Assembly: GCA_964036195.1 (NCBI GenBank)
Contig: OZ038457.1
Location: forward strand, 20,425,147-20,489,146
Direction of reading: 5' to 3'
DNA from: Sphaerolaimus hirsutus
Taxonomy: Eukaryota > Nematoda > Chromadorea > Monhysterida > Sphaerolaimidae
DNA length: 64,000 nucleotides
Shown in pieces: positions 24,201 to 56,120 of this stretch (the stretch's first letter is position 1; each line of letters starts with the position of its first letter). The translations under genes were made by a program, and so were the position numbers. The notes below the pieces were generated by a model. That model had not been told where the DNA came from. It searched no databases and saw nothing but the letters and a program-made list of their open reading frames with translations.

Positions 24201-27200
24201 CAGATCACTAATGAAGGTAACTATCATTAAGTGTGATTAGAGCAAGCTTGTGAAATGTTTGCCAATTTTGTAGTATTTTTGACGAGTTTTCAAATTTTTA
24301 TGTGGACCCTCAGTTTAAAAAAAATATTTTTGACCGTTGTTGTAAGTTTTTCATGTTCTGTGACAGCTTTCTAGCTCACCAGTTTTTGTGTGTACGCTTG
24401 ACTCATACATTTTGTGACCTAGCACAGCATTAAAAATTATTCCCTTTTTGTAGAAAGTGATACCTTTTTCACTTAATTTTTCGCAAACTGAAAAATAATC
24501 CAAAATTCCAAAAAGCTTCTCAAAATTTAAATTTCCGTCTGCCATCACTATCGATATGCACATGCCGCAACATGATACCACCAGACTAGTGCATTCACCT
24601 TGTCTCCCTTCAACGTGTCCACCCTGTACATGGTCATGGGCCACTCCTTGTACGCCATGCCCATGACCGCAGTATGCACGAAATCTCGCTCGGTCATGTC
24701 CCAGGCAATAATTTCATCCTCCAGGCTCAATTTACTCAGCGCCACGGGTTTTCCTGTGTGGATTAGGTTTATTCCTGGGAATTATTGGGGGTAAAAGTTG
24801 GTAGAAACGTACCTTCGTTTGTGTAGAATGTCGATTTTAGGTGCATCGATGCATCTCCCGCAGCTATAATGCCCAAAAATATGGCTGCCCAAAACATTTT
24901 TATTTGATTCTAGATAATTGAGTATTTGTGTATTTAAGAGGTTTCCTGAAAAATTAGAAAATCCGATTATCGACTGAACACAAATTGTGAACGTTTTGCT
25001 GCCTTGGTGTTTTTCAATGTTTTATCGCATGTGATCTCACGATCACATGCGTATTTAAAACACTGGTATCATTGCCATGGGCAGGTTCGCACTAATGAAC
25101 TTGCAGAATAATTTCGAGCTAAAACAAAACGGCGCGCATGTCTTGGGACCCGTTGTAATGATTTTTTTACTGCACCCAAACTACACGTCAATAACTACCT
25201 CTGTTTTGCGGGATAATTTTCAAAAATATGGTATTCAAAACGCTCTTTTTTTCACAATTCCCTGCTTTTTTACCATTATCAATCGCAGATTTACAACCTA
25301 TCGCAAAATATACAAGAGGATGACTTGCAGCACTTGCAGCTATTCACTGAGTACGGCAGACTGGCCATGGAGGAGGCGGATGCAAAACCTTTTCAGGTAT
25401 TACCGTATTTTCTTGAATAAGGCCCATGGGGTGGTCTTGTTTTAACGTCGTAATGTGTTTAGACGTGTGTATAGCTTAATTGGACATTTTTGAATAATCT
25501 AATTGAACTAGTGAACTTTTGTGAAGTGTATAATGCATTGCATATAATGACTAAAGGTTCTGCTGACTATGTGAATCTTTATCATTTGTCAATATCTTGA
25601 GTACATGCTCAGTGTTCCCTGATCTGTGTTTAATGTCATATTATAGTCATTTCAGAGGAATTTTTCGGGGGATTTTTTCCACGTGTCGCTTATGCGGGGG
25701 TTATTCACGGTATTATTGTAAAATGAATTTACAACAAATTAACTTATCACTATGTCTTCAATTCAGACGCTCATGTTTCTCGTGCGAGACTGGAGTTTCC
25801 CATATGAGGCGGAATATGGTTTCATCGGTGGCCAGCGAATTTTGGACCGCAGATTGCAGGTGTGTCTTTTGTGTGGTCCATTTTGTGCCCGCAGGGGTGA
25901 ATTCCGCGAGTTGAAAAGTAAAAAGATATTTGTGAAGTGAAATGTAAAATGAAAAGTGGAAGCAGAGGTCTCCAAGATTTTGGCCCTCGCGGGCGCTGGA
26001 TAGATAGCAAATCGCTCCTCCGGTGGGTTAGATAGCTGAAATGTTTTTTTTTGGGGGGGGGCTGGCGGGGTCACAATATATAGGCTTTTTCAAGGTTAAG
26101 AAGGCAGAAAAAGAATGGCTAATAATCAGTTAAAAGTAGCCAAAAGTAGCTTTAAAATGGCTAAAAAAGGTATATAACCATGTATATAGCCGGAAAGCAC
26201 GATTTTGAAGGTGAAAAACTATAAAAAGGTGCGAAAATTTATGATTATGGGCGAAACTTGGGGCAAAATTTCTCAAAGACCACTCCAGATAGATAGATAG
26301 CTGAGCGATTTTGGGGGTCTTTGGGGGTAGTAGCCAAAAAATTTGCCTCGGGTAGATAGATAGCTGAGCGGCCTCCGGGATAGATAGATAGCTGGCCCAT
26401 TTGGGGGGAGCCCCCCCCCCTAGGAGCCGCAGAGTGGAAGGCAAGTAAAAAGTTATGTAAATTGAGAAGTTAAAAGTTAAAAGCAAAGTAATTTTAGAAA
26501 AAAAAAGTTTACTCAGCTTTTAACTTTTTACTTGCCATATCACTTTTCATTTTACTTTTCACTTCTCAAATGGATCAAATTGGCACCAGCGCCGAAATTT
26601 TGACCCGTTTTGTGTGTATAATCTAATCGACCATTTTTACCCGCTTGCTAACTTTTGTATTTTTTAGACGACCGTAGTTCGTTCCGATGAGCAGGGAAAC
26701 AAAGTGGTATGCTTGATACACTTTTTCATTATTACGCCTAGGATGTTTGAACATTGGCAACTGTGCATAAATTTGGAACATTGCCAAAGTTTAAGCATGC
26801 CATGTTTCCGCATTTTAGCCCACGATTCTGCATGAATCTGTTAGTCAGAGTTGGTAAATCGAAACCTGAACTTTTCTATTTTGATCGCATTTTGTATTTG
26901 ACTACCGCGCATGAATGGTGTTGGGCTTCAAACTTAGACAGCTTTGATAGGTTTATAAATTTCAGTTATAGAAATTCAATTCGAACATTTTCTCGTGGTC
27001 ACTGCCGAAATGTAATAATTTTCACTTGAACCAACCACGGAGATGTACAATTTTTGTTTCTGTTACATGCTGTATTAACACTAGGGCCACTTCCAGACCC
27101 TGCAAAATTTACTGGTCATTTAAAATTTCAAAATGGCATTTTGCATGACTTTTCACACTTGCATGACATTTGACAATTGACAGGGCATTTTCAGGGCCTT

Positions 27201-30200
27201 GGGGTCGCACTAGGTAACGCTAGACGCCGTATAAAAACCACACCGTAGCTTTTCTCGCCCTATTAGCAGCACTATCCATTTCTATTTCTATCCATATATT
27301 TCAGCCAGGGGTATCTTGAATTTTGACCCTCCAAGTGGTTGGATAGATAGCTGAGCGGCCTTCGGGATAGATAGCTGGAAAAAAATTTGGGGGGTTGTGG
27401 GGGTTCGATATATAGGCTCTTTCAGGGTGTAGACGGAAGAAAAGGGCGGAAAAAGCTAAAAGTAGGTGTAAAATAGCTCAAAATGGGTATACAAGAGCAT
27501 ATAGTACTGAAAAAAGCTGAAAATAGGTAAATAGGAACAACAACTAGTATTTTGGAGGTGAAAACCTATAAAAAAGTATGAAAAATAGCGATTAAGAGCG
27601 AAAATTGGTGTATAGTTAGTTTCTCAAAAATCGCTCCAGATAGGTATATAGCTGAGCGATCTGGGGGGGGGGGGGTTACGGGGTAGTAGCCCAAAATTTT
27701 GCCTCCGGGATAGATAGATAGATAGCTGAGCGGTCTCCGGGATAGATAGATAGCTGGGCGGTTTGGGGGGGGGGGGGTAACCCCCCACCCCCCCCCCCAA
27801 CCCCACCCCCATTCGAGACCCCTGATTTCATCACCTGTCCACAAATTTAAAATGATGTTTTTGTCAATTTTTAACCATCCAAAAACTCTCAGGTCTGCGA
27901 TAAACAGCACCCGGAGCTGCAGCAGTTGCGACAGCACATTCGATCCTGTTTCGATACGATCAGTTGTTTTTTGATGCCGCACCCAGGGTTGAAGGTGGCT
28001 ACTTCACCCGCTTTTGTTGGACAGCTAACTCGTTGGTTTGGGGGGGGGGGGGTAAATGAATGTGTGGGGTTGTTTTGGGGTTGGCATTTTTTGGTGATTG
28101 CAATTGAGATGGGTGTAGGAGAACTGCGTTGCGGATGAGGAGACTAGTGATGGAAAAGCGCCGGAAAAAGGGTCAAAATGCGGGACAAGATTTTCCGGAA
28201 AAAAGCTGCCAAGCACCATGGGCGCCATTCCATCACTAGAATAGACATCCCTAAAAATAGCGGATTGGTGTAGGGATATAACTACCAATGGCGAGCAGAA
28301 TGTTAGAAAACCTTCCAATAAAGGCGCTTTGGGTTTGAAAAAATCCTCATATTCCTTGCCAAATAATCTCCTTGACATATAACCTGAGCTTTTCTCTTTC
28401 CAGTGGTCGAAGATGAGTTCAAACAAAACCTGAGGGTGTTGGTACCCAAAATCCTGGCGCCTGAAAATTTGGTCGTGAAAGAGATCAATGGACAGTCATT
28501 GACGTGCCGCGGCCTTTTGTTCTATTTTGAAGCGTATACGAAAATATTTCAGGGTGAGGATTTGCCGGAACCGAAGTCCATGCTTATGGTAATTTTTTAC
28601 ATGCTCGTATAGTTTTTCATTGTTAAAAATGCTATTTATGTGTGATAAACGTTGAAAATATGAATTCAGGCGACCGCGGAAGCTAATAACCTGGCGGCAG
28701 TGGCCGAATCGAAAAAGCTTTACAATTCAGCTATGGATGGAGTTAGTGTATAGATGTTTTTGTGTTTTTATAACGTTGATATACCGTTATCTCTTGAATA
28801 AGCCCCCTTACACCGTGAATTGATCATGTATTTAAGTCCTGGGAAATTCTGTCAGAGAAATAAGTCCTCCATTTGAATAACTCCCCTCGAATACCCCCCC
28901 CCTGTCTAAAAGTCTGACAGAAAAATAATTCCCCTGGGATTTATTCGAGGATTTACGGTAACATTCCTCTGTTCATGGCTTTTTTATTCAACTTATTTCC
29001 CTTCACTTAGGCGTGTGGCGGGCACACACCTTATATGGCACCTGAAGATTTGGAACAGCTCCACGAACAAACCAGACTAGATGCACTCAATTTATTCAAA
29101 TTGACCAAAAAAATGGGCGGCGATCCGTTTTCGTCCAAATTTCTGGAGGATTTGGATGAGCAAATCATGGTTTGTTTCTGTGGATGGTTATCTGAAGATT
29201 GTCAACACTTTGAAGCTTTTTTGGAGCCGATATGGGCCCCCACCCACTAGTTCACATCGCAAATAAGTGTCAACTGAATGTCAACTAAATGACAAAAAGT
29301 TTTTTGAAGCATCACAGATAACATAATCACATAATTAACCCAAATTTAGTTGACACAAATTTTGATGTCAACTAAATGAGTGTGTCTTGGTGCTTTGTAC
29401 TATACGCCAATGAAGTATATATAGCGCCATCGCCGGTTGGAATTCCACAATATATTTCATTCATCGCCTTCAATCCATTTCGTTCGCAGGATGCATATAA
29501 CCAGTGGGTAAAGACCAATGAAAGCAAAAACCTGTTCAGATCCATGCGAACCCCGGCCGTCATGTTTGTGTTCATGATCGTCACTTACGTTTTCCACGAA
29601 GTCAGCTTAGCTTGTTCGCGTATCCGGCTTAATGGCGTACGCAAGCTCGTGCAGGGGTCTCCAAGATTTTGGCCCTCGCGGGGGCTGGATAGATAGCAAA
29701 TCGCTCCTCCGGAGGGATAGGTACCTGAATATTTTCGGCGGGGGGGGGGGGGGGCTCGCGGGGGCAAAATATTTTTCAAGGTAAATAAGCCAGAAAGGGG
29801 AAAAATAGCTAATAATAGGTGAAAAGTAGCCAAAAATAGGTGAAAAGTAGCCAAAAATGTTTAAAATGGCAAATAACTATAAAAACGTGTGAAACTTCGC
29901 GATTTTGAGTGAAAATGGGGGCAAAATTTCTCAGAAATAGCTCCAGATAGAAAGCTGAGGGGGGGGGGGGGTTCAGGGTGTTGTAGCCAAAAAATCTGCT
30001 TCCGGAATACCTAGATAGCTGGCGGATTTGGCGGGCTGCCCTTGGAAACCCCTGAGCTCGTGCATGCGCATAAAGAAGTTTTAGCTAATTAGTCCTGATT
30101 GTTCTTGTTCACGGTGATGTTGGACAAAAGCATGGCATTACTTTTTGCTGTGGCAGTTTTTTGTGACGCAGTTATCATTTTGCGCATGCGAGTTGACGAG

Positions 30201-34028: not shown

Positions 34029-34227
34029 CTGGGGCCAGTTCCGCAAAATGAGAAGTGATAAGTGAAATGGCAAAGGCGAAGTAAAAGCGCAAAGGCATTG
34101 GCAAAAGCGACGTAAACATAAAAATAAAAAGTAATTTCTCTTCGCTTTTGCCATATCACTTGCCAATTCACTTGCCAGTTCACTTCGCCTTTGCCATTTC
34201 ACTTCTCATTTTGCGCAACTGGCACCA
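34029..34227. mobile_element. MITE sharing introner-type termini (GTGCCAGTT group)
   Basis: Read on the minus strand it starts CTG/GTGCCAGTTGCGCAAA and ends TTGCGGAACTGGCCCCAG. The long inner arms are GAAGTGAAATGGCAAA-like. The ends resemble those of the introner-like family, but the core differs. A relative is at 50230-50433. Confidence 0.7.
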
Positions 34228-34455: not shown

Positions 34456-36643
34456 TCACTTAGCCTGTCGACTGATGGCCTCGAACACTAGCGAGCACTC
34501 GCTGCTGTCGTCGCACTGCCACGGTCTGCGGTGGGGTAGGCGAGACTGGCGAAAGTTGGCAAGCTGGATGTCATTGGCTTGGAGTGATGTAAAGCTTGGC
34601 TGGCTGATGTAAAGTGATGGCTTGGCTAGTGATGTAGAGGCACCGGTGCCCCGGTGCTGGGCACCGAAGGGCACCACCACTGGTGCTGGTGCGGTGCCAT
34701 TGCAATCTAGACGGGTGCCCTGCCGGTGCCGGTGCCATTTTTATCTGAATAGCACCGGTGCCGGTGCGGTGCGGTGCCATTTTTTTGCCGGTGCCAAAGG
34801 TGCTAGCACCCGAGCCAAAGTGAAAGGCACCGGGAAAGTCACCGGCCAAGGTTTCATGTGCTGTGCAATTTTGTTCATAGCACATGCTTATTCATATTTC
34901 AACAAACAGCTATATATTTACCCAACCGGTTTTTTGCCATTTTTGTAAACATCCCATCAAATTAATATACATACTGTGAAATCCATTATACCCGATACGT
35001 GATCTGATAAGCAATTTTGTGGAATTTTAAATCATATTTATATTTGATATTTCTCTTACTTTTTTGTTCAAAATTTGTTGTCAGTTTATGAGAGAGTATA
35101 GTTCCATTCTCTGTACAGCAACGACTCCGTTCAGTAGACAATAGTGGCTGTGGGCATTGTAGTGTATTCAATATTTTATCTTTCATTTGTAATCATTGTA
35201 ATTTCTTCATAAAAGTGATCGCGACATCATTCTGATCATTTTAAGTGCTCAACCATCAAAATCGGTAGAAAATTCATGGAAAAATGCACTTCCGAAGGTG
35301 TGGCCACTGAGAAACTGCCCGATATTTACTTCTGAAATTCCAGCCCGGTGCGGTGCCTTTCGGTGCCGGTGCCATTTTTTTCGAATGGCACCAGTGCGGT
35401 GCGGTGCCATTTTCTGGCAGGTGCCCCAGGGTGCCAAGTGCCCTTTTCGTGCGTTGGCAAAGGTGCCGGTGCGGTGCGGTGCCATTTTTCCCGGTGCCTT
35501 TAACATCACTAGTATTGGCGCGATTCGAGAAAGCGGTGTCGACCAGAAACCATTCAATCACATTCGGTATTCTACCCTCCTCAAGTCCACCCTGGCCATT
35601 CAACTCCCCCCTCCAACCCCCCCCCCCCAGTTCCCCCCACCTATGATCCTCCGGCACAGTTTCCATCCTGGCCGCATGCGGTGCTATCAACGGCAGCGGC
35701 GGGTTCGTAGGCGGCGCGTCCACCGTTATCACGCCGCCGCTGCCCGGCTGCACGAGGGGCGGCGGCTCGGTGCCCAGGAAGGATTGGAGGGACATTCTGG
35801 GGGGGGTATTTGGGTGGAGATTGATGTTGGAGAAATTCAGGTTTTTTCAGATTCCAAGAAGAATTCCCCCTGTTTTAGACGAGTGAGGAGAGAAAAATTC
35901 CTCCCGCAAGTAATCACCGGTAGGTAAATTTGTCTTGCATTAGTCACCCCCTCCCCCCCCCCCGCCGTCAAAATGGGCCTGACGAAAAAATACCCCAAAG
36001 AAATTATTTCAATCAAATACAGTATAATATTTATGTGCCATTTTCTATCCCACCTAGGTGCAGTGACCGCCTTGCTTTTGCGCGACTGCCGACCGGAACC
36101 TTCGGGCTTTGATGTGGCCGGCGTGTCTGTCGTTGTCTCCGTGTCCCCGTCGCGGTGCCGCACCCTGCGCAGTGCCCCGGTGCAGTAGCGAATAGAATGT
36201 GCTCTGCCATAGGGGTAGGAGTAGGGTTCAATAGAACCGTAAGGCGCTCTCAGTTAGCAAAATCGCGCCCTTTCTGCGCACAATTTCATGCACTTACACG
36301 CGCCCTATCCTCTATGTCCTACCTAATTTAATTGAATATGGAGCCAGACGCAATATCGGCCTGCGGCCGCCCGCAGCCAAACACTGTAAAATGTCAAAAG
36401 TCATGTAAAATGCCCTGTAAAATGTTAAATAAACTTTTTAAATGGCATTTTACAGTGTCTGATCCTCAGCGCACCTTCGAATGGCCGAAGCGAGCCGGTG
36501 GTGCAGCGAGATTGTCCTCAGCGCGTGCGGGTCGAATTGGAGACTCTCTTTGCGGTTGCGCACCGCGTACAGCTCGGACACGAGCAGCGACAGGTCCGAG
36601 TGCTCGTCGGAGTCCGTGTTGTCCAGCTGCGTCGCGGCCGTTG
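34456..36643 (-). CDS. Unrecognised protein, 3' four exons
   Basis: Exons 36643-36475, 36164-36054, 35796-35641 and 34525-34456 join in phase (all phase 2) and end at a stop. They give QLDNTDSDEHSDLSLLVSEL and LQFDPHALRTISLHHRLASA (helical, then basic), then a charged T/S-rich linker (DGDTETTTDTPATSKPEGSG), then MSLQSFLGTEPPPLVQPGSG with a proline-rich stretch, and a short end RPWQCDDSSECSLVFEAI. No domain is recognised. The 5' end is unresolved. A hydrophobic segment at 36877-37071 may be its membrane anchor, but the phases do not join directly. The intron after 36475 starts GTGCGCTG and soon reads CACTGTAAAATGCC, so it also resembles the introner-like family. Confidence 0.55.
34627..35511. 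mobile_element. MITE with TAGTGATGT ends and GGTGCCGGTGC arrays
   Basis: TAGTGATGTAGAGGCACCGG at the left, CCGGTGCCTTTAACATCACTA at the right (the right end is given as its last bases). Flanks GGCTTGGC and GTATTGGC match at 6 of 8. It has CACCGGTGCC and GCGGTGCGGTGCC clusters at both sides and sits in the last intron of the unrecognised gene. Confidence 0.75.
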
Positions 36644-38408: not shown

Positions 38409-39701
38409 ATGGAACTCAATCAGCCGTTTGCGAACAGCCTACTGCAGGTGCCACTTCCAGACCGTGTAAAATGTCCCGTAAATATCTTTTTAAATGTCAT
38501 GCAAAGTGTCAAAAGTCATGTAAAAGGCCCTGGGAAATGGTAAACTTTCGTTATTCGACTTTTCACGGCATTTTACATTTTACAGGTCATTTTACACGGT
38601 CTGAAATTTCCCCCAGGCCGCGTGTTTCAGCGTTATCACAACAGCGACAGCGATTGCACCGTTGATTATCAGCTGCGCCACGCGGCGCAGAAAGGATAAA
38701 AGTCGGATCATAGGGCTGCCCAAATATTCGCGCGACACCGTGCCCGACCGGTCGCTGACCGGCATGAAAAACACGTCCGATTTTCGCTACAAGCAAATGA
38801 AATCGGAATCGATGCCCAAGCCCAGAGTGGATCCGGGCGTCAGATCTGAGATCATGGTTCGGACCGTAGAGTCTTCCCATGAGATGAACATCTCCTTTTT
38901 CTAGATTTCCGAAATTTCCAAAAAATAGGTATCTCAATTTTAATTGTTTTTTTTACTCCATGTAATTCTATGCGTTTTTTTCTGCTTGTATGTACTTTTT
39001 CTACATTCTGGCACAGTTACGGGCACCTTGTAGTCGGGGATTTAGGTGCATTAAAACGATTAATTTTGCAATTAATATTTTCACCTCCAATTTTCCCTCG
39101 GATGGCACTCTCTTTAACTCATTCTAAAACGCAGCGCGGCGGCACGGCGGCGCCCTACGACCCCAGCTACAAGACCCTGGCGTACATCGGCAACAGCGAG
39201 TTCAACGAGACCACCTACGCCATGAGCAAAGTGGCACCCGTGCAGGGCGCCAGCCCGGCGGCAGCCAGAAGCGGCGACACGTGCAGCCCGGCCAAGACTA
39301 CAGAGGGACCACGGGTGCCAACGCCGCAGCGCAGTTGGAAAAAAGTGGGGAAAACCCCGCGGGGACTACAGATCCCTACGCCGCAGCGCAGTTGGGAAAA
39401 AGTGGGAAAAACCCCGCCGAGACCACAAATTCCTACGCCGCAGCGCAGTTGGGAAAAAGTGGGAAAAACCCCGCCGAGACCACAAATCCCTACGCCGCAG
39501 CGCGGTTGGGAAAAAGTGGGAAAAACCCCGCGGGGACTACAGATCCCTACGCCGCAGCGCACTTGGGAAAAAGTGGTGTGTTGCTTCTTTGAAAATGACC
39601 ACAACTTGCTGAGTCATTGCCGCGTGTTTTTATCATGGCGTTGTCCTCCACACCAGAGTTGTAAAAATACTGGTATTTTTGGGAAGCATAAATATAAATG
39701 A
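38409..39701 (+). CDS. Single-pass membrane protein, tandem paralogue A
   Basis: Family not recognised. Exons 38409-38447 (MELNQPFANSLLQ), 38617-38856 and 39135-39701. A 13-residue N-terminus leads into a helix (AACFSVITTATAIAPLIISC), then a basic stop-transfer (RRRKDKSR), YSRDTVPDRSLTGM, a linker ending VRSEIM, and exon 3 starting RGGTAAPYDPSYKTLA with NSEFNETTYAMSK. Exon 3 then runs in frame through a 57-bp tandem repeat. About 281 residues if there is no further intron. Aligned with paralogue B, identity is highest at YSRDTVPD..SLTGM and RGGTA.PYDPSYKTLA. Intron 1 is an introner-like element absent from B. Confidence 0.65.
38448..38616 (+). mobile_element. Introner-like MITE forming intron 1 of paralogue A
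   Basis: Begins directly at the donor GTGCCACTTCCAGACC and ends TCTGAAATTTCCCCCAG at the acceptor. The inner part is inverted TGTAAAATG/CATTTTACA arms. Removing it restores CTG CAG GCC GCG TGT, continuous with paralogue B, which has no intron here. Confidence 0.8.
39300..39580 (+). repeat. 57-bp coding minisatellite
   Basis: Four to five copies of a 57-bp unit containing CCTACGCCGCAGCGCAGTTG followed by GGAAAAAGTGGGAAAAACCC. The unit is a multiple of three, so all frames stay open through it: PTPQRSWEKVGKTP in the paralogue frame and YAAAQLGKSGKNPAETT in another, plus a long minus-strand ORF. It is absent from paralogue B. Confidence 0.85.
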
Positions 39702-39858
39702 ATATACCGTATTTCCTTGAAATACCCCCCGGGGGTGATTGTTTCAGAGCGAGAATTTTGAGGGGGTTTAACGAGGGGGGAGGGGTATTTCGAGGGGGGG
39801 GGGCTTATTATTTCGCCAGACAGTTTTTAAACTCCCAGTACTAATTTGTTGCCTGTAA

Positions 39859-40077
39859 TGCTACGATTACAGCTCGACGTAAAATTTCAGCGTAAAATTC
39901 CATCGCAAAATTTATTACATGAAAGTGGATGATGATACATGTCTGCAATTTATCATTGACAATATGTTTATCAATACCTTCATTGTGTCCAAGTGTCCTT
40001 CATCATCCACTTTCATGTAATAAATTTTGCGATGGAATTTTACGCTGGAATTTTACGTCGAGCTGATATCGTAGCAT
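39859..40077. mobile_element. Foldback MITE
   Basis: Arms of about 75 bp: CAGCTCGACGTAAAATTTCA and AATTCCATCGCAAAATTTAT are answered by their complements ending near GATATCGTAGCA. Confidence 0.75.
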
Positions 40078-40093
40078 AACCTACGCAAACACA

Positions 40094-41140: not shown

Positions 41141-42338
41141 ATGGAACTCAGTCACTGGTTTGCGGTTTACCTGCCGCTGGCCGCTTGTTTGAGGGTGATC
41201 GCGACAGCCGCGGCAATCGTTCTGCTGATTGTCGGCTGCACCAAGCGCAGTAAGAAGAAAGCGCAGCCGCCGCGGCCGAATTATTCGCGCGACACCGTGC
41301 CCGACAGGTGCCACTCCCAGACGCTGTAAAATGCCCTGTAAATTGTCAAATGTCATGCAGTCAAAATTCAGGTAAAACAGGTTTGCCATTTTACAGGACA
41401 TTTTACAGGGTCTGGGAGTGCCCGACAGGTCGCTGACGGGCATGCGGAACAATCCGCAATTTCAGCAGAGCACTTTGAAATCGGACCCCATGCCCGAACT
41501 AAAAGTGGATTGTAATGTCAGATCCGACATCATGGTGCGGCCAAAAGTTTTAGTTATTTTGTGACAGTGCCGCAACTGAGTCGCACCAAGTAGTTTGCCG
41601 ATGACAATACGAAAGGTCGTGAACAAGTGAACTGTCGGTTAAAATACTTGTCACTCGACTCACGGTCGCTAATTTGACGTAGGCTCCCTAGACATGTAAG
41701 CCTGCTCGACATGTAGACCCGTTGCAGGGGTCTCCAGTTGGGTGCCCCCCCCCCAAAATCGGCCAGCTACCAATATATCCCAGAAGCCGCTCAGCTATTT
41801 ATCTATCTATCCCGAGGCAAATGGTTTGGCAAAAACTTTCCCCTAAGTCCCTCCTCCAAATCCCACATAGGTAGCTATATTTTACCTACATGTCGAGTGG
41901 GTTTACATGTCTACAGATACAGGGACTGCTAATTTACCATTCAGCTATTTATGAATCGACTTATCACTCGATACGGTGCCGAATTCCCATATTTGTGTTT
42001 GCCGCTTTATCTTTGTTCTCTCTAGTTGAAACTCACTCGTAAATACCTAAATAGTTTTGATCGGGTAATTTTACAACGACGCCAAAATCAGAACAATCCC
42101 ATTGCAACCGGGCATTGGAAACCTTCTGAAGCATTAATATAACCCTACAACGCAGCGCGGCGGCACGGCGCAGCCCTACGACCCCAGCTACAAGACCCTG
42201 GCGAACATCGGCAACAGCGAGTTCAACGAAACCACCTACGGCATGAGCAAGGGCGGCAGCATCAGCGCCACCGCGGATAGAGGCGACACTTGCAGCCAGG
42301 CTAAGACAACTGAGGGGCCGCTGGCAGCTGGGGCACCT
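41141..42338 (+). CDS. Single-pass membrane protein, tandem paralogue B
   Basis: Exons 41141-41307, 41429-41534, 42156-42338. MELSHWFAVYLPLAACLR leads into a helix (VIATAAAIVLLIVGC), a basic flank (TKRSKKK), YSRDTVPDR, SLTGMRNNPQF, VRSDIM and exon 3 RGGTAQPYDPSYKTLANIGN with FNETTYGMSKGG. The end is uncertain: a donor GTAACT follows GGGGCACCT at 42338, otherwise the frame runs to a stop at 42500 inside a MITE. It resembles A throughout except the minisatellite. The introner-like intron 41308-41428 has no counterpart in A. Function unknown. Confidence 0.65.
41308..41428 (+). mobile_element. Introner-like MITE forming intron 1 of paralogue B
   Basis: CCCGACAG / GTGCCACTCCCAGACG ... CAGGGTCTGGGAGTG / CCCGACAG. 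The 8 bases before the donor are repeated exactly at the acceptor, so the 3' splice AG comes from the duplicated target. Splicing gives CCC GAC AGG TCG CTG, colinear with the unbroken CCC GAC CGG TCG CTG of paralogue A. 121 bp. Confidence 0.88.
41724..41850. mobile_element. Fragment of a GATAGATAGCTG-family MITE
   Basis: Starts AGGGGTCTCCAGTTGGGTGC and contains CAGCTATTTATCTATCTATC. It lies in the second intron of paralogue B; the right part is not clear. Confidence 0.55.
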
Positions 42339-42525
42339 GTAACTGTGCGTTGCCACTTTGTGTGGCGGGAACTCTCGGCGCATGTAAACCCTCAGCACAT
42401 CTATGCACTAGTGATGGAAAAGCGCCAGAAGATGGCGCCAAAGCCATGGCGTCTTTACATCAATACCATGCACCCTATTCACAATCACAGATTTTGTTAA
42501 CTTTTAACCCAGATTATGTCCAGAT

Positions 42526-45086: not shown

Positions 45087-47925
45087 GTCACAACCTCCCA
45101 GTTCAGCGGGCGGCGGCGGCGATGGCCAGGGACAAGGGGGCTCTAAGCGACTGCAGCAGACGCAGGCGCAGGTGGACGAGGTGAGAGCGTTTTGTGATTG
45201 GAGGTTTTTGTTGTCATTGTTGTGGTTCTTTGGGTTCGGGTTTGCGGAAGTTTTGTAGCTTTCTTGGATAGGTGCGGCGGGTTTTTTTCTCGCTAAAATC
45301 ATAAGAAAAAAAACTAAACACAAGGGGAATAGCTAAAATAGCTATATAAGCCCATATATAGTCAAAAATAACTGAAAATTGGCAACAATGTATGAAAATT
45401 TGCGATTTTGAGTGAAAATTGGGTAAAATTTCTACGAAATGACTCCAAATAGATAGATAGTTGGCCAATTTATATTATTTTGGGAGGTTCATTCAGGATA
45501 TAACAGCGAAAATGTTTGCCTGGAAAATGTGTGATAGATAGCTGAGCGGCGCCTGTGATATTTAGATGTTCTTCCGTGAAACGTGCCTCCCATGCCACCG
45601 CCCACCAGGAGCAATTTCAGCTATCTATACCCTAGAAGACAGGTTAACGAATGTTATATGATGCTTTTTCTCACGTCGCAGGTAGTTACCATAATGCGAT
45701 CAAATGTTGAGAAGGTGCTGGAACGTGACGACAAGCTGACTCACCTGGACACGCGCGCAGGTACATTGTTTTTCAAGGACATATCCAGGTGGGCATAGCG
45801 GGGGCTGCACTGCAGCCCCCCCCTTTCCTGGATGAGGCGTAGGAAGTTGTAGTGAGGTGTAGTAACTTGGGCAATTCTGGGGGCAGTCCCAAGCCCTGTA
45901 AAGTGTAAAGTAAAGTGTCAAATGTAAAGTAAAGTGTCAAGTCAAATGTCAAATGTAAAGTAAAGTGTCAAGTCAAATGTCAAAAGTAAAGTAAAGTGTC
46001 AAATGTAAAGTAAAGTGTCAATCGTGTATCCAAATCTTATTTTTCGAAAAAATATTTGGATACGAAAACATAAAATTTGGATACAAAAAAATAAGATTTG
46101 GTTACACACTTGACACTTTACTTTACATATTGACACTTTACTTTACATTTGACATTTGACTTGACACTTTACTTTACATTTGACATTTGACTTGACACTT
46201 TACTTTACATTTGACACTTTACTTTACACTTTACAGGGCTTGGGATTGGCACCAGGTCGTTAAAAAAGACATTTTTTGTCCATCCCTAGGAGTGACTGAG
46301 CCCCCCTCCCTCCCCCCGCTCGCCAGGCTCCGTAAACAAAAACCACCCACTCAAAATGCTGGATACGTGCCTGTTTTGTGTTGATTATAGTTTCCAATGT
46401 ATCGGCTATCAATTATTAAAATGGTTTGTTAAAAATCTTGAAAGATACGTTTATTCCATGCCTAAAAATGTAGCAATTTCTCAGATGCGCTACAAGAGGG
46501 CGCGTCACAGTTCGAAAAGTCTGCCGCAACGCTGAAGCGAAAGTATTGGTGGCAAAACATGAAAATGATGATTATCATGGCTATAATTGCTGTCATTGTG
46601 GTCCTTATCATCATTGGTGAGTGATGGTTTTTTTATTGTTACATCTTTGCCTTTCAATTTTTTGCACCCTTCGAAAATGGGGGGGGGGTGTCAATTTCTG
46701 ATAATACCCCCTTTTTGTTGATGTAGATATAAAACTTTTCGGGTGTGACAGCTATCGAGCTTTGAGATATTTCCATTAGATTGCACAACCTTAGAAAAGT
46801 GAGTGATTAAATATATGGGTACTCAGGGACGTATAGGGTTCAAACGGGATTGACTTTTCGGGATCGGGATCGGGATTCACTTTTTGAGATTTCGGGATCG
46901 GGATCGGGATCGGGATTGGGGTTTCGGGATCGGGATCGGGATTGGTTTTTTGAGATTTCGGGATCGGGATCGGGATTGGCCGGGATTGGGGTCACGGGAT
47001 CGGGATCGGGATTGGGATAGGCATTTTTCCGGGATCGGGATTGGGTTCTAGGGATAGATATTTTGGCCATTTTTCTGGCATTCACAGTTGTTCATAAAGG
47101 TCTCAAAACACTGTTGGATGCCAGAAAAGTGGCATAAAATTGACGCTGGGGGTTTGCATCCACTTTTTTGCATGCAAAAACGTCATTATTTCACTTTTTA
47201 TAATTTCGACTAATTTTTCCGGGATCGGGATCCCGGACTTGGGAGTTTCTCGGGATCGGGATCGGGATTTGAAAACTTTCGGGATCGGGATCGGGATCGG
47301 GATTGGGGTTTCGGGATCGGGATCGGGACTGGTAAATCCCGGAATTTCACGGGATCCGGGATCGGGATCGGGATCCCGTTTGAACCCTAGGGACGTATCC
47401 AGGATTTTTGAGCGGGGGGGGCTGCTTGTATACGGAGGCCGGCGAGGGGGGGGGGGGGCTCAGCCCCCCCCCCTAAAATTTTAGCTACATAGTGGCGGGA
47501 TGGCGCCATGGCGCTAGCGCCATCAGTAGGCGCCACGCCATGGCGCCATTGGCGTTGTCGTCAGCGCCATGGAATGCTGTATATGTATGTAAATATACAT
47601 ACAAAACAACAAAAAAACACAACATTGAGTGTATTTATAATGATTTGTGGCCACATGGAGCAAATCTCCGATGATAATATCTTATGTCTGGTGAAGAATG
47701 CGCGCTTGCGCGCAAAATTTTTTACGCTGACGTAGAAAAAGTCGCATTTTCCGGTCACTTTTTGGTCGCGCCCCGGGAGGGGGGGGGGCTGCAGCCCCCC
47801 CCCGCCCCCCCCCCCTGGATACGGCCCTGTGGGTACTGCTCGCTTACTGTCATTCTTTTAGGACCTTTTTTCGACCTTTGCCACTGGTAAACTTAATCTA
47901 AATTCCAGTGTACTTCTCCACATGA
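45087..47925 (+). CDS. syb: Synaptobrevin (VAMP), v-SNARE; start exon not fixed
   Basis: Vesicle SNARE that pairs with syntaxin and SNAP-25 for exocytosis. Exons 45087-45180, 45682-45760, 46485-46616, 47909-47925, all GT-AG in phase. They encode a Gly-rich leader ([17 protein letters not shown]), the SNARE helix ([20 protein letters not shown], then [20 protein letters not shown] with the zero-layer Arg in LERD), the juxtamembrane [10 protein letters not shown], the anchor [17 protein letters not shown] and the family's short C-terminus VYFST. The ATG is either in a short upstream exon (usual for VAMP genes) or upstream in the same frame at 44968. The last intron holds a nested pair of hAT-like elements and the second intron an introner-related element. 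AATAAA occurs at 48383. Confidence 0.94.
45877..46255. mobile_element. Introner-related MITE in a synaptobrevin intron (antisense)
   Basis: CTGGGGGCAGTCCCAAGCCC to GGGCTTGGGATTGGCACCAG; on the minus strand it begins GTGCCAATCCCAAGCCC and ends GCCCCCAG. The interior has reiterated TAAAGTGTCAA and its complement. Here it sits within an existing intron instead of creating one. Confidence 0.8.
46824..47829. mobile_element. hAT-like element, CAGGGACGTATCCAGG family, host of a nested insertion
   Basis: CAGGGACGTA... to CCTGGATACGGCCCTG, flanked by exact TGGGTACT (46816-46823, 47830-47837). It is split by the element at 46834-47389. It lies in the last synaptobrevin intron, ending 79 bp before the terminal exon. 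Confidence 0.92.
46834..47389. mobile_element. hAT-like MITE, GATCCC-rich family, nested
   Basis: TAGGGTTCAAACGGGATTG to CCCGTTTGAACCCTA inserted only ten bases inside the outer element. The exact duplication GGGACGTA (46826-46833, 47390-47397) is made from the outer element's own terminal repeat. Confidence 0.94.
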
Positions 47926-49072: not shown

Positions 49073-49450
49073 AGGAGCCTGGCGCTACTGCTACAGCAAA
49101 AAAACGTTATGGTGCTTTTGGCGCTATTGCCGTCCACTATGGCATTTTACCATTTTCGGATAAAAAGCGCCATGGTTCTTAGAGCCAGAAACATTGTGAT
49201 TTTTGCATCACCAATCGCCATCAGCATTTTGGTGACATACTAGCGAATCGAGCTGGCGCCAGCACCATTGCATCACTAGCCTCGACTTACAATGTCCATA
49301 CTTTCTCTACATGTGGACCAGAACTGCGATGGAAATGCTACGGAATTTAAAACGGGACGTCTTGCATAAGTGTCACTTGGCGTGTATTTAAATATCTACA
49401 GTACGCTTTCAAAGCATCATCATTATATTTTCCGACTTGAACCATGCACA

Positions 49451-52400
49451 TCATCTGTTCGAATCGCTCTGCCCGGCGCGTTTCTCCCTCTGCGTCGCGT
49501 CGCACAGCAGCAAGAGCAGCATGTGGTTGAGCATGTTGACGTCGGGTCGCGCCGCCGGCTCCAGCTCCCAGCACCGCTGCATCAGGTGGCTCACTTCCAG
49601 TGGAGTGCGCGCCGGCTCCATGGGCGTCATGCCCGCCTGCAGGTGCATGGACAAGTTGTGGCCATTTTGTTAGTTTCAAATTATATCGTAGATCGTGCGT
49701 GGGCGATGTGTCCCACATTGCGTTGAGTAGACTGCGGCACGATTTTTTGTCGAAAATCTAGATCTTGGTACCTTAATTGAGAAGTCCATCACGCTAACGT
49801 GTTTATGCCCTCCGTGCTATGGTGTGAAAAATATTGCCTCAAATTATCTGTAACTGACGCAAATTTACCACACACCGTAACCGCAGCCCGACAATTTCCG
49901 GTACCGTTTACCTCCGGTACACCCAAAAGGTCACCCACTTTAAACCGCCATTCGGACTAACCCTAACGGCTCTGAGCGCGTCCTGGTTGCCCAAGTGTCC
50001 GTAGGGCAGTCGACCCAGTGCGAACACCTCCCACAGGAGCACGCCGAACGACCACACGTCGGCGCGCCGGTCCGGCTTGGCGGCGCAGTGCGGCCGGACG
50101 CACTCGGGCGCCGCCCAGCGAGCCCATTGAGAGGCCCAGGTTAGGTGCTCGCTGCTTCTGCGGGGGGGGGGGGTTGGGTTTAGATGTCCTAAGTTAACGG
50201 TGCCATGTCAACCTTGGTGGCATGTCCTGGTGCCAGTTCAGCTAATTGCGAAGTGAGAAGTAAAATGGCAAATGCTAAGTAAATTGGCAAAAGCAAAGTG
50301 AAATGGCATATGAATTGGCAAAAGCGAGGAAAAAGAAAAAGTAATTTCTCTTCACTTTTGCCATTTTACTTCTCAATTCACTTCGTATTTGCCATTTTAC
50401 TTATCACTTCTCAATTTGCGGAACTGCCCCCTGCTGCACCCTGTAAGTGTCAAATATCATGCAAAGTGTCAAATAATTAAAAAATGATTTTTTGTAAGTT
50501 TTGACGTTTTGCATGACATTTTGACAAAATTGTATGCCACTACATGACATTTGACACTTTATATGACACAGTACAGGGTGCGCGACTGCCCCCAGTGGGT
50601 TATGATTGCGATGTACTCACTCAGTGAAAACGCTCGGAGCCATGCTGGCGGCGTAGCACGAATCTGCCAGCTTCACGCAGAACTGATTGTGAGCGTTGGA
50701 CGGCCTGCGTTGCCTGTGCGCGTACAGCTCCGTGTCCGTGCCCGGCCTGGCCGCCGTCGCGGCCACTATGCAGTTTCTCGCCGCCAGACTGCCGTGGCTG
50801 CAGCCGGCCGCGTGTATGCACGCCAGGCCGTTGCCCAGCTGCGCGGCCATTTGCACCAGGGGACAGTCGCGGACCATGTAAAATGTCCTGCAAAATGTAA
50901 AATGTCATGCAAAGTGTCAAATGTCATGTAAAATTCCCTGCAAAATTGCAACCGAGTTGCCATTTTGCAGGGCATTTTAAATGACATTTGACACTTTGCA
51001 TGACATTTGACATTTTACAGGCCGTTTTACAGGGTCTGAGACTGGCACCAGGTCGTTCAGCTGCAGCGGCTCGTTTGCGACCGCTTTGCCGCCCGGCCTG
51101 TGCTGAGCGCATCCGAGGGGCCCTGTGAAAGTGACACCCTCTGCTAAGTCTCATACGAAAATAGCTTCTATATTGAATATCGAAAACCTTAACATCGATC
51201 ATATCACGTGGGGCAACGTGTATCATTCCATATTTGATATGGCTATCAACAATACAAAACAAAAATCAACATTGAAAACTATCCCAGCGCACCTTTAGAC
51301 AGCAAAAAGTCCCTCAAATTGCCGCCTCGTTCAAACTCATATATAAGCAGCACTCTACCAGGTTCGTGACAGGCCCCATGGAAGCCCACCACGTTTCTAT
51401 GGTGGACGCCTCTGAGAGCGGCAAGATCTTGGTGCAGCGCCTGTCGATCGGCGATCAGCTGCCACGCGACCGATTTGACGGCTACCTGGGGGCAGTCCCA
51501 GACCCTGTAAAATGTCAAATGTCATGCAAAGTGTCAAAAGTCACGTAAAATGCCCGGTAAAATGGCAAACGTACGTTTGCCATTTTACCGGGCATTTTAC
51601 GGGACTTTTGACACTTTGCATGACATTTGACATTATACCGGGCATTTTACAGTGGCTGGGACTGGCACCTGGACGCCTTGAGACGGGCCCAAACTGCTGC
51701 TGCGACGCAAGTTGCGCTTGCTGCCGCTCGAGCGCTTCCGTGTGTCCAACTGCGCGCGTGAAAATTGGTGGCTGTGAACTGACAAGATTGAACTGAACTA
51801 CCAGACCCTGTAAAATGCCTCGTAAAATGTCAAGTGCCATGCAAAATGTGAAAAGTCATGAAAAATGGCAAATGACCAGTGAAAAATAAACTTAAATTTT
51901 GACATCTTACATGGCCTTGGCACTTTGGATGGCATTTTACATTTTCACCTGTCAGTGAATATAGCTCTGTGTTTGGCTAGCTTAGCTTGAGAGCGCACCT
52001 TCAATACGGCCCTGTAGAAGTGAGATCTAGACGAAGTGGCAGCCGGCTGCGAGTCCAACTTGACCACGCCGCGCGGCAAATACGTCGCCCTAGGGGCAGT
52101 CCCAGACCTTGTAAAATGCCCTGTTAGATGAAAAGTGTCATGAAAAGTGTCAAAAGTCATGAAAAATGCCCTGGAAAATGGCAAACGTACGTTTGCCATT
52201 TTACCGGGCATTTTACCTGACTTTTGACACTTTTCATGACACTTTTCATTTAACAGGGCACTTAACATGATCTCGGACCGGCACCTGGGCACTTCGACGG
52301 CCGAGTGTCGCTGGAGGTCGTTGCCCGCGGAGCTGCCGCCCTGCTCGAGCAGCATGTCGCACTCGGCCGACTGGCGCAGCGAGTCCTTCAAATGTTGACG

Positions 52401-52492
52401 GATTTCGGCCGTGCGCAGCCAGCCGCAGATCAGCAGCACTGCAGCAAGAGCCGCGCAGCAGCCGAGACCCTGGGTGCGGCGGGGGAATCGAT
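49451..52492 (-). CDS. Membrane-anchored tyrosine-kinase-like pseudokinase, 5' end not found
   Basis: Exons: 52492-52285, 52089-51999, 51749-51669, 51485-51293, 51122-51049, 50856-50621, 50157-49968, 49636-49451 (stop). A membrane helix (CCAALAAVLLICGW) is followed by a juxtamembrane region with a basic stretch (TRKRSSGSKRNLRRSSS), then a kinase domain: VAVKSVAW keeps the ATP-site Lys; NVVGFHGACHEPGRVLLIYE; the catalytic loop HGSLAARNC lacks the HRD Asp; LADSC replaces DFG; WAAPECVRP and DVWSFGVLLWEVFALGRLPY follow; and LMQRCWELEPAARPDV ends the C-lobe. The LAARN, WSFGV and RCW features point to receptor tyrosine kinases, but the loop changes predict little or no phosphotransfer, so it probably acts as a scaffold or allosteric partner. 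No glycine-rich loop is obvious. The ectodomain was not found upstream. At least three introns are introner-like. Confidence 0.85.
50230..50433. mobile_element. MITE of the GTGCCAGTT group in a pseudokinase intron
   Basis: CTG / GTGCCAGTTCAGCTAATTGC ... TTTGCGGAACTGCCCCCTG. It has GAAGTAAAATGGCAAA inner arms. It is antisense to the gene and inside an intron, immediately next to a second element (50434-50595). Confidence 0.75.
50434..50595. mobile_element. Introner-related MITE in a pseudokinase intron
   Basis: CTGCACCCTGTAAGTGTCAA to CAGGGTGCGCGACTGCCCCCAG (last bases). It abuts 50230-50433 and has inverted TGTCAAA/TTTGACA arms. Confidence 0.65.
50857..51048 (-). mobile_element. Introner-like MITE with a CTG 3' end in the pseudokinase
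   Basis: On the gene strand: AACGACCTG / GTGCCAGTCTCAGACC ... GCGACTGTCCCCTG / GTGCAAATGGCC. Removing it exactly gives LQLNDLVQMAAQLGNGLAC, the expected kinase helix, but the last bases are TG, not AG. The nearest AG downstream (GCGCAG, 18 bases in) would delete six residues in frame. Confidence 0.75.
51486..51668 (-). mobile_element. Introner-like MITE forming a pseudokinase intron
   Basis: GGCGTCCAG / GTGCCAGTCCCAGCC ... GGTCTGGGACTGCCCCCAG / GTAGCCGTC. Splicing joins GPSQGVQ to VAVKSVAW in phase 0. The element spans the whole intron, with nothing left over on either side. Confidence 0.85.
52090..52284 (-). mobile_element. Introner-like MITE forming a pseudokinase intron
   Basis: GTGCCCAG / GTGCCGGTCCGAGATC ... 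GGTCTGGGACTGCCCCTAG / GGCGACG. It occupies the entire 195-bp intron in phase 2 (SAVEVPR then ATYLPRG). The centre is the palindrome AAACGTACGTTT, also present at 51570. Confidence 0.85.
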
Positions 52493-52630
52493 CTGGGGCA
52501 AGTCACAGAGATTGTGAAATGTTAAATGTGATGCTAAGTGTAAAAAGTCATGTAAAATGCCTTGTAAAATGGCCAACGTTCGTTTCTCTTCGTATTTACA
52601 AGGAAGTTTACATGACTTTAGACACAATGC
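52493..52630 (-). mobile_element. Degraded introner-like MITE next to the pseudokinase membrane exon
   Basis: The acceptor side ATCTCTGTGACTTGCCCCAG resembles the family's 3' end. The other end is truncated near TGACTTTAGACACAATGCC. The upstream exon could not be identified. Confidence 0.5.
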
Positions 52631-55600
52631 CCCCAGTTGGTGGCCGGCCCTACGCTTGCTTTTCTTACCAAACTGAATTAGGGGAAAAGTCAGCTACAGA
52701 CGCGCAGAACGTACCTATATAAGAGGCCTAAATGGTCACTCCTTCAGAGTTATTAAAACTACCAAACATTACAAAAGTATACGTGAACGTAAAGTATTTA
52801 TTTTTTACTCACCCTGTGAGTACAGAAAACGTAAAGTACATTTTTTTCTTTTACTCATGAGTAAACACGAGTAAAATACTTTTCCCCACCGAAAACGTAA
52901 AAGTGAGTATTTTTAGACTTTTTCCGCAATTTCCATACCTTTTTGACCAGTTAAACCTTTTGGGGAATTTTTTTGTCCTATTTTCCGCTTTTTTCTCCCT
53001 TATTCCATCGTTGCCTTGAAAAAACCCTATAACAAAGCCATCTGAAATACGTTTTCTGTACTCGAGTACTTTCAGTATATGTAAAAGTATATGAAAAAGC
53101 GAGTATAGCTACTTTCTTAAAAGTATACGTAAAGATATTTACTCAGTACTCGAGTATACGTACTTTTTGAGTAAACGTAAATACGTTTTAACAACTATGC
53201 ACTCCTTTTGCAGCATTTCGTAAATTCAATTTAGCTCAAATTTATATGTAAATTCAGGCGCTTTTTATCGCCGATGGGTCATTCCATTTGCTATTAAATG
53301 AACAGCGGAAAGTGTCAATCTCGAGTCGCAATCTCAACTCAGTCGATTGCAGACAATTCTCCGCTCTAAAGTGCATTTTCTGCAAGTGGAATTACTCTGC
53401 GGCGAGTTGAATAAAGTTGCAACTGCCACTGGAACTGGGATTGGGACGCTGCATGGATTTCTAAAATGAAGCAGTCACAAGACCTTGTCAGCTAAAGTCA
53501 CTTGGGATTTCGCTACATTTTTGCTATTCTAGGTGAACTATTGGCTGCGGTGCACGAAATGACATTTGTGTCTGATGACTTGAAGCATTCGAGCAAAATC
53601 TTAGCTAGTGCTGGTATTTAAATACTTGCATCTCATCACAGCTAGTCTTAAATGCCGTATTTCTTCTAAATAATAGAAGGGCATCTTCATTTTTGCGGAC
53701 GCCAATGAGTACAGGTTTTGTCACTTTTGAATCATCGAAAAAATGATAAGGTGACGTGTGGCAAACTCAAACAGAAAATTTGCGTAAAAATATTGGTGAA
53801 AGTGTAAAAAGCAACTTTCAATATAATAACACCCGGTAATGTAAATAGAAACAGTGGTAAAAAATAGTAGAGCGCTCTTATATTCGGTGACAGTCGGAAA
53901 ATTGTCAATTTTAAACTGGGTATTTTCTGACGGATAATAAAACATTTTCAACATGCGCACTTCACCCGGCAGACACACCGGAGTGAACATTGTGTTATTT
54001 TTACACAGTAGATACACGCAATCTTTTTTTCCTGGTTTATAATTTCTGTGTTCTATATCTAAATATATATTTAGGTAAAATATGCACTGGCACCTTGACT
54101 TTTACTTGATATTTATATGAAGCTGACCCTTATGAACTTAATCTTAAAAACCTGATAGTTGGAAAAATCTTGCGTGCTTTGCTAATTGCCTTCGTATCGG
54201 TGCTTTTGCCAACAACATGATCCCAAATACCGTAAATACTCTATTAGTACGACCCCCCTCCAATAAAGCGACCCGTCCAATAGCGCGACCCCCAAACATG
54301 TGCTGAAAACAATAATGTGACAGTCGCATTAATAGAGTACGGTAACCATTTTATTTACATAGGTACCTAAAATAGTTTACCTATAGAAGTTCGAAGCTTA
54401 CAGAATGTAAAAAAATTATTTGTACACAATAGTAACTAGAAAAAAATAAAACAGTAACTTGTTGACAGCAAATTGACTGAGAAAGGAACTAGAATAACGC
54501 CTCGAGGTTAACAGCGAGCACTGAACATGACACGAACGCGTTTGTCTCAAACTGACACAGCTAAAAACAACTCAGCCAGACTATTACTTGAGCGCAGCAT
54601 CGAACAGCGCCCATGTGCCGACGGAAGAACCATGCACAAGGAGCAGCAAATGTGAGCGGGCGCGGCGGCAAGTGGCACGCAGTTGCGGACGCGCCAGCGA
54701 CAAAGTGGCCTAATGAGCGTCCGCGGCGCTCACATGCAGCCGTGCACCAGAGTTGTTAAAAGTACTGAACTTTTTCAAAAGTAAACGTAAACGTAAAGTA
54801 TTTATTTTTTTACTCACAGGTGAGTACAGAAAGCGTAAAGTATTTGTTTTTTACCTTTACTTATGAGTAAACGTGAGTAAATTACTTTTGCCCCCGGAAA
54901 ACGTAAATGTGGGTATTTTTGAGAAATTTTGACCGAATTTTCACTCAAAATCACTTATTTTCAAACTTTTTTTACCATCAAATTCACTAGTTAATGTGTT
55001 TTGCCTGTTTTATGCTATTTTGAATATTTCGTCCCTATTTTTAGCATTTCTCTCCTTTTTGCCTTGAAAAAGCCTATAAAAAGCCTGTTTGTAATACGTT
55101 TTCTGCACTCGCGTATATTCAAAAAGTACGCGAGTAAGTGAGTACCGGTATTTTTTCGGGAGGAAACGCAAACGTATTTACGCAATACTCGAGTATCCGT
55201 ATTTATCGAGTAAACGTAATTACGTTTTAACAACTAATCGGTGCACTGCGCTGCATGCACGCAGTACGCAACACGGCGCGCCCGTGCACATGCATTTGGC
55301 GGGCGTGGTGCTAGAGCTGTGCGGCCGCCCTGTGTACTGGTGAATAGTGGTGATGAGAATCCACTGGACTAAAAAAGAACCTATCTAGGTGTGCATCTAG
55401 GGGCCAGATTTGGTCACTTGTCGACGCTTTTCAACATTTTTATCGGCGCTTCTCGAATGCCGATTACTTACGTGCCATAAAGTCATTCTAACAGAAAACA
55501 GTTAAATGCCATGGTATTTCCGAAAAGCACCGCCGCCCCCCAGGCACAGCAAAAAAATTGTGTGTGATGCGTCGTGAAGTGTCGTGAAATATCTTCGTGA

Positions 55601-55716: not shown

Positions 55717-56120
55717 ATAACACAGCAAAAACGACACCGACCGCGGCTAGGATCGTCTTGTCGAGCGGCGACGCGGCGTCCAGCTGTATTTCGTTGGCGC
55801 CGATCGGCCGTTCATACCACATGGCGGCGGGGCGGCGACGCGGCAACGACCAGGGGGCAGTCCCAGACCCTGTAAAATGCCATGTAAAATGTCAAATGTC
55901 ACGCTAAGTGTCAAAAGTCATGTCAAGTGCTTTAACGTACGTTTGCCATTTTGCAGGGCATTTTACATGACTTTTGACACTTTGCGTGACATTTGGCATT
56001 TTACAGGGCATTTTACAGGGTCCGGGATTGGCACCAGACGACGATAGCCTCGGCACAGCCGCATGGCGCGCGTCCACGCCGCCCGCACTTGTAACCGGAC
56101 GCGGGTAGATTGTGTGGAGA
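55717..56120 (-). CDS. Two exons of an unrecognised, possibly membrane, protein
   Basis: Exon 56120-56035 reads SPHNLPASGYKCGRRGRAPC then GCAEAIVVW; the next exon from 55850 reads SLPRRRPAAMWYERPIGANE then LDAASPLDKTILAAVGVV and a hydrophobic end near 55717. Phase 2 is kept across the element 55851-56034. A start at the internal ATG (55822) would give a short N-terminus plus one membrane helix, like 38409 and 41141. The downstream donor is uncertain, and I cannot tell whether it belongs to the pseudokinase gene. Confidence 0.4.
55851..56034 (-). mobile_element. Introner-like MITE with a CTG 3' end
   Basis: Gene strand: ATCGTCGTCTG / GTGCCAATCCCGGACC ... GGGTCTGGGACTGCCCCCTG / GTCGTTGCC. Same structure and length (184 bp) as the pseudokinase introns, with inner ACGTACGTTTGCC. 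It ends in TG instead of AG. Confidence 0.75.

Follow-up and report, generated by a model that had tools for sequence, protein, structure and literature searches.

Background

How genes acquire introns has long been debated, and animals offer few clean before/after pairs, in which one gene copy holds a new intron and another does not. In the sections cited here, the introner survey of Gozashti et al. 2022 recorded introners in two animal groups only (PMC9860276). The locus described here lies in a 64-kb window, by which we mean the whole stretch of DNA that was analysed, and it raises the question of whether a mobile element has created introns in the genes that it entered. The anatomy of the sequence suggests that a palindromic, CWG-targeting MITE very probably made four introns, namely B1 and A1 in two tandem paralogues and K1 and K2 in a receptor-kinase-like gene.

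A profile of the family, built on six copies of the element, was run against the 64-kb window with a cut-off of E below 1e-5. Gene strands were fixed from homology and reading frame, independently of the element. In the kinase gene model, the splice sites of four ordinary introns were picked to preserve the frame.

Results and discussion

Probable reciprocal introners in paralogues A and B

The features of the two paralogues were as follows.

38409..38447, +: paralogue A, exon 1 (inferred)
38448..38616, +: A1, introner of paralogue A and second of the two; phase 0, 169 nt, CAG/GTGCCA...CCCCCAG; paralogue B uninterrupted there
38617..38865, +: paralogue A, exon 2 (inferred), containing at 38734-38757 the empty site that matches B1
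38866..39134, +: paralogue A, inferred intron common to both paralogues, meeting exon 3 at an identical codon in each; phase 0
39135..39330, +: paralogue A, exon 3; 3' limit provisional
41141..41307, +: paralogue B, exon 1 (inferred)
41297..41307, +: left direct repeat of B1, GTGCCCGACAG; its right copy is 41418-41428
41308..41428, +: B1, the introner in paralogue B; 121 nt, phase 2, GT...CAG; an internally deleted copy with an 11-bp border direct repeat
41429..41546, +: paralogue B, exon 2 (inferred)
41547-42155, +: paralogue B, the same common intron, phase 0
42156..42345, +: paralogue B, exon 3; DUF236-repeat match under the cut-off; 3' limit provisional

Read directly, the letters at the B1 junctions are ...GTGCCCGACAG / GTGCCACTCCCAGACGCTG...CAGGGTCTGGGAGTGCCCGACAG / GTCGCTG. 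The initial annotation had described this intron as exactly one MITE, with the donor GT as the first two bases of the element and the acceptor AG taken from the duplicated target, and the sequence bears this out. It had also called paralogue A intron-free. That description holds at the B1 site, where A reads continuously as GACACCGTGCCCGACCGGTCGCTG (38734-38757) and where the spliced coding sequences of A and B align without a gap, with Asp-Arg-Ser in both; it fails for the gene as a whole, as A carries its own copy, A1. At the A1 site, paralogue B is in turn continuous (CTGGCC), with CTG as the target triplet. The before/after pair proposed for B1 was thus confirmed, but it is one of two: A1 and B1 occupy different codons, each of which is uninterrupted in the other paralogue, and reciprocal insertions of one element family in tandem paralogues make two such pairs.

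Both frames are open once the elements are removed, and retention of A1 or B1 leads to a stop; B1, if kept in the mRNA, would throw the reading frame off (121 = 1 mod 3) and bring in a stop. Across 155 aligned codons the two proteins share 61.9% identity, and Ks is 0.57. Omega was 0.50 (bootstrap 0.33-0.77, 152 codons) and reached 1 or more in 0.05% of bootstraps, which points to some constraint on A and B, as an average that includes the time before the insertions. The DUF236 matches in A and B scored 23.2 and 17.8 bits, respectively, under the family cut-off of 25; in the portion of the source cited here, DUF236 is a family mostly confined to nematodes (PMC8480184). The intron shared by A and B held no copy of the element family at E below 1e-5 in either paralogue.

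It is highly improbable that both introns are ancestral and that each paralogue has precisely lost one of them. Precise excision or cDNA-mediated loss is a possible route to such a pattern, but both introns belong to a repeat family with further members in the window, the empty sites in A and B each hold a single target copy, and the B1-equivalent site in A is CCG and not CWG. The lack of CAG in A implies that CAG was either gained in B before the insertion or lost in A. Insertion into each paralogue is the reading preferred below.

A tandem repeat of 57 bp (39321-39576, 4.5 copies) lies 3' of the third exon of paralogue A. It is open in the frame of A and would append 19-residue repeats to the C-terminus; no such 57-bp array was present for paralogue B among the listed tandem repeats. 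Between the paralogues, at 39855-40080, lies a MITE-like inverted repeat with 81-nt arms that are 95% complementary.

Copies and ends of the element family

With this cut-off (E below 1e-5), the profile located 17 family copies across the 64-kb window, among them the six on which it was built. For counts at the ends and borders, nine copies (A1, B1, K1, K2, K3, K0, e3, e4 and e11) were chosen because their GTGCC end is clear and the other end can be read. The seven copies near 9.7, 27.1, 36.4, 42.7, 43.8, 50.5 and 51.9 kb were excluded together with e9, on the grounds that an end was lost or diverged or, for e9, that the ends were not of the GTGCC kind. Three copies are listed here; A1 and B1 are listed with the paralogues above, and K0-K3 and e4 with the kinase gene.

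34032..34225, -: e11, related two-ended copy; CTG/CAG borders; GGGC-type opposite end
45880..46252, -: e3, two-ended and longer, at 373 nt; CTG/CAG borders; outside the gene models
52497..52633, -: e9, GGGG-type ends on both sides; CTG on one side and CAG on the other (by eye)

Taken by majority, the consensus of the six copies is palindromic over nearly its whole length (-138.7 kcal/mol), with the four terminal bases unpaired, GTGC at one end and CCCC at the other. The opposite end is of the GGG type in eight of the nine GTGCC-ended copies, a set picked for GTGCC, and is altered in B1, where the last base of the element has become GA, ahead of CAG. The two ends of e11 differ at one of their first nine bases (GGGCCAGTT vs GTGCCAGTT). 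The copy e9, the tenth with two ends, lacks a GTGC end; each of its ends is of the GGGG type. When at most one mismatch was allowed, a GTGCC end next to a CWG target (CAG or CTG) was matched 10 times, against 0.26 expected from shuffles, and a GGGG end next to a CWG target 7 times, against 0.11 expected; the GGG-type end of e11 at 34029 is counted in both lists.

The copies A1, B1, K1, K2 and K3 align with one another end to end, and their ends coincide with inferred exon borders. The internally deleted B1 still forms a hairpin of -54.3 kcal/mol (z = -7.5), which none of 200 shuffles equalled, and in some of the elements ACAG sequences resembling acceptors occur 5' of the inferred acceptor, two of them in B1. 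Copies e3, e4 and e11 are 56-72% identical to the six consensus copies, which marks them as related subfamilies. The six copies themselves show 83.3-94.3% identity to their own consensus (B1, 89.7%), so that the word recent, which the initial annotation had applied to the B1 insertion, is a loose one: the insertion postdates the A/B duplication, and this is its only basis.

No transposase (DDE, or a Myb/SANT partner) was recognised among the 20 window proteins scanned with Pfam, and no known RNA family or tRNA was found in the window. The idea of a relative among viruses or prokaryotes was dropped: viral contigs gave no exact match to the two end patterns, and three exact 19-base matches in prokaryote contigs were taken as chance.

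Two further copies deserve mention for their positions. The one at 9669-9803 lies just 5' of what may be the start codon of a minus-strand ORF with a DUF1757 match. The one at 36385-36454, which is degenerate, lies between GC-rich stretches and was left uncounted; it could be an old introner of a minus-strand gene with a GTGCGC donor.

Target duplication

Read with the GTGC end first, the triplets before and after the element are CAG/CAG in A1, B1 and K2, CTG/CTG in e4, K3 and K0, CAG/TAG in K1, and CTG/CAG in e3 and e11. The CWG is therefore identical on both sides in six of the nine GTGCC-ended copies, and its W agrees in seven of the nine. Extended leftward, the border repeats measure 1-4 bp in eight copies and 11 bp in B1, and on the strength of the eight a 3-bp CWG duplication was taken as the family rule. 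The targets are mostly CWG, and the AT-rich target duplication of some PIF/Harbinger elements was not seen. CWG is also the centre of the target preference of zebrafish Harbinger3.

The initial annotation had given B1 an 8-bp duplicated target. The borders of B1 are indeed repeated, though over 11 bp, and 8 bp is no norm for the family: a duplication of the 8-bp class was found in one of the nine GTGCC-ended copies, B1 itself, the longest other being the 6-7 bp of a diverged copy. In that copy, at about 27084-27205, CACTAG flanks the element left and right with no CWG, a repeat of 6 bp that grows to 7 when the following G is counted; this counts against a strict 3-bp rule.

A longer family duplication of 6-8 bp, eroded or masked in most copies, is accordingly very unlikely, even if the CACTAG repeats raised our estimate of it slightly and CCCGACAG stands on both sides of B1. 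The other eight GTGCC-ended copies have repeats of 1-4 bp; the CCCC ahead of the right CWG is shared between copies and so belongs to the element; the extra match of B1 includes GTGCCC, which the element end carries too; and the best border repeat reached at least 7 bp in 162 of 3000 random placements. A border repeat of 12 bp, the maximum length sought and one that B1 attains, arose in 5 of 3000 random placements of the same geometry, and GTGCCCGACAG occurs at two places only in the 64-kb window, both at the borders of B1. Because GTGCCCGACAG in the exon resembles the element end GTGCCCCCAG, the surplus bases in the repeat of B1 are best read as the product of repair or conversion between the two.

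Two identical 22-base stretches, GCGCCAGTGTCATGGCGCTTTT, at 12565-12586 and 24006-24027, are each preceded by CAG; they are perhaps another CWG-targeting family, which would supply a GC donor.

The receptor-kinase-like gene and its copies

The kinase gene and the copies in or near it were as follows.

49450..52492, -: receptor-kinase-like gene model, eight inferred exons, 420 codons and then a stop
52492-52285, 52089-51999, 51749-51669, 51485-51293, 51122-51049, 50856-50621, 50157-49962 and 49636 onwards, -: exons of this gene model
52090..52284, -: K1, 195 nt; CAG/TAG borders; retention in frame and open
51486..51668, -: K2, 183 nt; CAG target on both sides, immediately ahead of VAVK
50857..51048, -: K3, 192 nt; flanked left and right by the CTG target; GT...TG if removed precisely
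50230..50430, +: e4, related two-ended copy; CTG/CTG; lies antisense within one of the ordinary introns of the kinase gene
55854..56034, -: K0, full-length copy; CTG target, GC-rich flanks; candidate exonic position

The predicted product matched the protein tyrosine kinases in Pfam (PF07714, 2.6e-47, residues 122-398), and its best match among solved structures was TRKA; the other frames considered held 8 and 15 stops and were rejected. Three of the seven introns of the model (K1, K2 and K3) are end-to-end copies of the family. At the K3 junction (NDL/VQMAAQ) the TRKA alignment is continuous and gapless, and at the K2 junction (VQ/VAVK) it is also continuous, with a one-residue gap two residues earlier. 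The K1 junction lies outside the kinase match, so that the frame is its sole support; K1 is free of stops and might be read through in translation.

For K3, the nearest canonical in-frame alternative is an AG 18 nt into the exon, use of which would remove the six codons VQMAAQ. K3 is one of three things: an intron with a rare acceptor, a cause of a six-codon deletion or a broken allele. GT-TG introns are known as human exceptions, according to the part of the source cited here (PMC4176328). K0, like K3 a full-length copy, would perhaps likewise give a GT-TG intron if precisely spliced. An open frame runs through its junction for 73 of at most 80 codons, and its flanks gave no credible Pfam match; with flanks that carry no homology support, K0 was left as an unproven exonic copy.

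At the position of HRD in TRKA the kinase-like product has HGS (50621-50856), and it has LADS at the place expected for the DFG motif. Judged from these motifs it may be a pseudokinase, and a pseudokinase could tolerate damage. Two other inferred introns of the gene also have GTGC donors (GTGCGC). The gene content points to a host that is probably an animal, perhaps a nematode, and not an alga: it includes this receptor-kinase-like gene, a GBP-type GTPase and, in A and B, the DUF236 matches under the cut-off. Ordinary introns in the gene models, however, end in GCAG or ACAG, which look unlike TTTTCAG, the usual acceptor in nematodes. Upstream, e9 adjoins the inferred acceptor TTGCCCCAG of the hydrophobic first exon of the kinase gene, and host GTAAG stands directly upstream of e9.

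Orientation and proposed mechanism

In all five copies at exon borders, distributed over three gene models, the GTGC end comes first when read along the gene, an arrangement expected by chance once in 32 cases. Removal leaves an open frame in each of the five, retention brings stops in four, and homology is continuous across four of the junctions (A1 and B1 by the paralogue, K2 and K3 by TRKA). The initial annotation had proposed the creation of an intron by a DNA transposon, and the anatomy supports it well, in the open frames, the orientation and the homology at the junctions. There are points against the intron reading, namely the CTG of K3, the unequal CWG of e3, e11 and e9, the TAG that forms the right copy in K1, the possible translation of K1, the CACTAG repeat near 27.1 kb, the ACAG sequences within some elements, and the use of the frame in picking the ordinary splice sites of the kinase model.

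It is quite unlikely that ordinary MITE insertions have simply broken decaying A, B and kinase genes, the splice-like borders being a by-product of the CWG target. K3, and possibly K0, lies at a CTG that offers no AG where one would be expected, and the HGS of the kinase against the HRD of TRKA would suit a decaying gene; but the frames are open outside the elements, the copies in the gene models all take one orientation, and A and B are under purifying selection at an omega that, again, averages over time before insertion.

Intron creation by the MITE is thus the reading that we develop. On this reading the element is a non-autonomous, near-perfectly palindromic DNA transposon that inserts at CWG, usually duplicating three bases, and that is probably mobilised by an unseen NuwaI/Harbinger-like transposase. 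Its ends match but for the last few bases, which are GTGC at one end and usually GGGG at the other (GGGC in e11); we infer that the donor arose when the second base of an original GGG end mutated from G to T. Sense insertion at a CAG would give CAG/GTGCCA...CCCC/CAG, in which the GT of the element would serve as the donor, the exon CAG with GTG making a fair donor site, the complement of the GGGG end would place a C-rich stretch near the acceptor, and the duplicated target CAG would serve as the acceptor itself. The host would splice the elements, as the frames, the stops and the homology suggest, and removal as an intron would restore the old codons exactly. Inserted the other way round, the element would have CWG/GGGG as its left border, with no GT. 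The anatomy thereby suggests what the step to spliceability may have been: one end departed from the palindrome and supplied the donor, and the target supplied the acceptor.

A wider proposal, which we consider unlikely, is that the one-base GGG-to-GTG change made a CWG-targeting animal MITE a general source of introns, spliced by the host whatever the W; GT-AG introns would then come from CAG targets and GT-TG introns from CTG targets (K3, perhaps K0). If it were true, new introns could arise with TG acceptors. The CWG target leads to a prediction: insertions at CAG should be canonically spliced, and those at CTG should not, unless the spliceosome accepts TG.

Comparison with known systems

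Introners of Aureococcus and Micromonas, described as MITE-like by Huff et al. in 2016, reportedly take a splice site from the duplicated target; they are said to differ from the present family in duplication length, end sequence and host. Introners that bring their own donor and borrow the acceptor from the target are already known (PMC9860276), and the present elements look like a new introner family in an unusual host. Horizontally transmitted introners have been surveyed in a PNAS paper of 2025, and the present family may already stand in its tables.

In the sections of the Gozashti et al. survey cited here, Chrysochromulina introners likewise combine an element donor with a duplicated-target acceptor, with 4-bp duplications and no inverted repeats (PMC9860276). 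The present elements resemble the DNA-transposon introners described there in being short, in having many copies and in having intron borders that coincide with element borders, those introners often showing inverted ends and duplications as well; they differ in their mostly 3-bp CWG duplication, their near-perfect palindrome broken at the end and their animal-like host (PMC9860276). It is by descriptions, and not by sequences, that the present family is set apart from the 548 introner families surveyed, as far as the cited sections describe them (PMC9860276).

Closer in its target is NuwaI, of the PHIS superfamily, which in the cited part of its survey has CWG duplications, termini that are usually GGG, and inverted repeats of 12-61 bp, and which was recorded in 16 animal genomes and, within that survey, in animals only (PMC4482050). 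The present family shares with NuwaI, as described in that part, the CWG target duplication (identical on both sides in six of nine copies, as above); it differs in its inverted repeats, which span nearly the whole arm, beyond 12-61 bp. As to the termini, GGG stands at one end in eight of the nine copies, a set picked for the GTGCC end and hence with GTG at the other, and GGGG-type ends stand on both sides of e9. The family likely belongs to NuwaI; the palindrome is longer than NuwaI repeats, a difference from the parent that a deletion MITE could show. The NuwaI section of that paper makes no mention of introns (PMC4482050).

A search of the literature on introners and Harbinger gave one fungal paper, and one combining introners, nematodes and terminal inverted repeats gave nothing. 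The cited portions of a nematode-intron paper (PMC9169325) and of a tunicate-splicing paper (PMC13326754) contain no description of the present family.

Other features of the window

An uninterrupted minus-strand frame of 1472 codons (59583-63998) runs to the end of the window and carries an AAA_12 (helicase-type) domain. The window also encodes a GBP-type GTPase (Pfam), which we read as atlastin-like.
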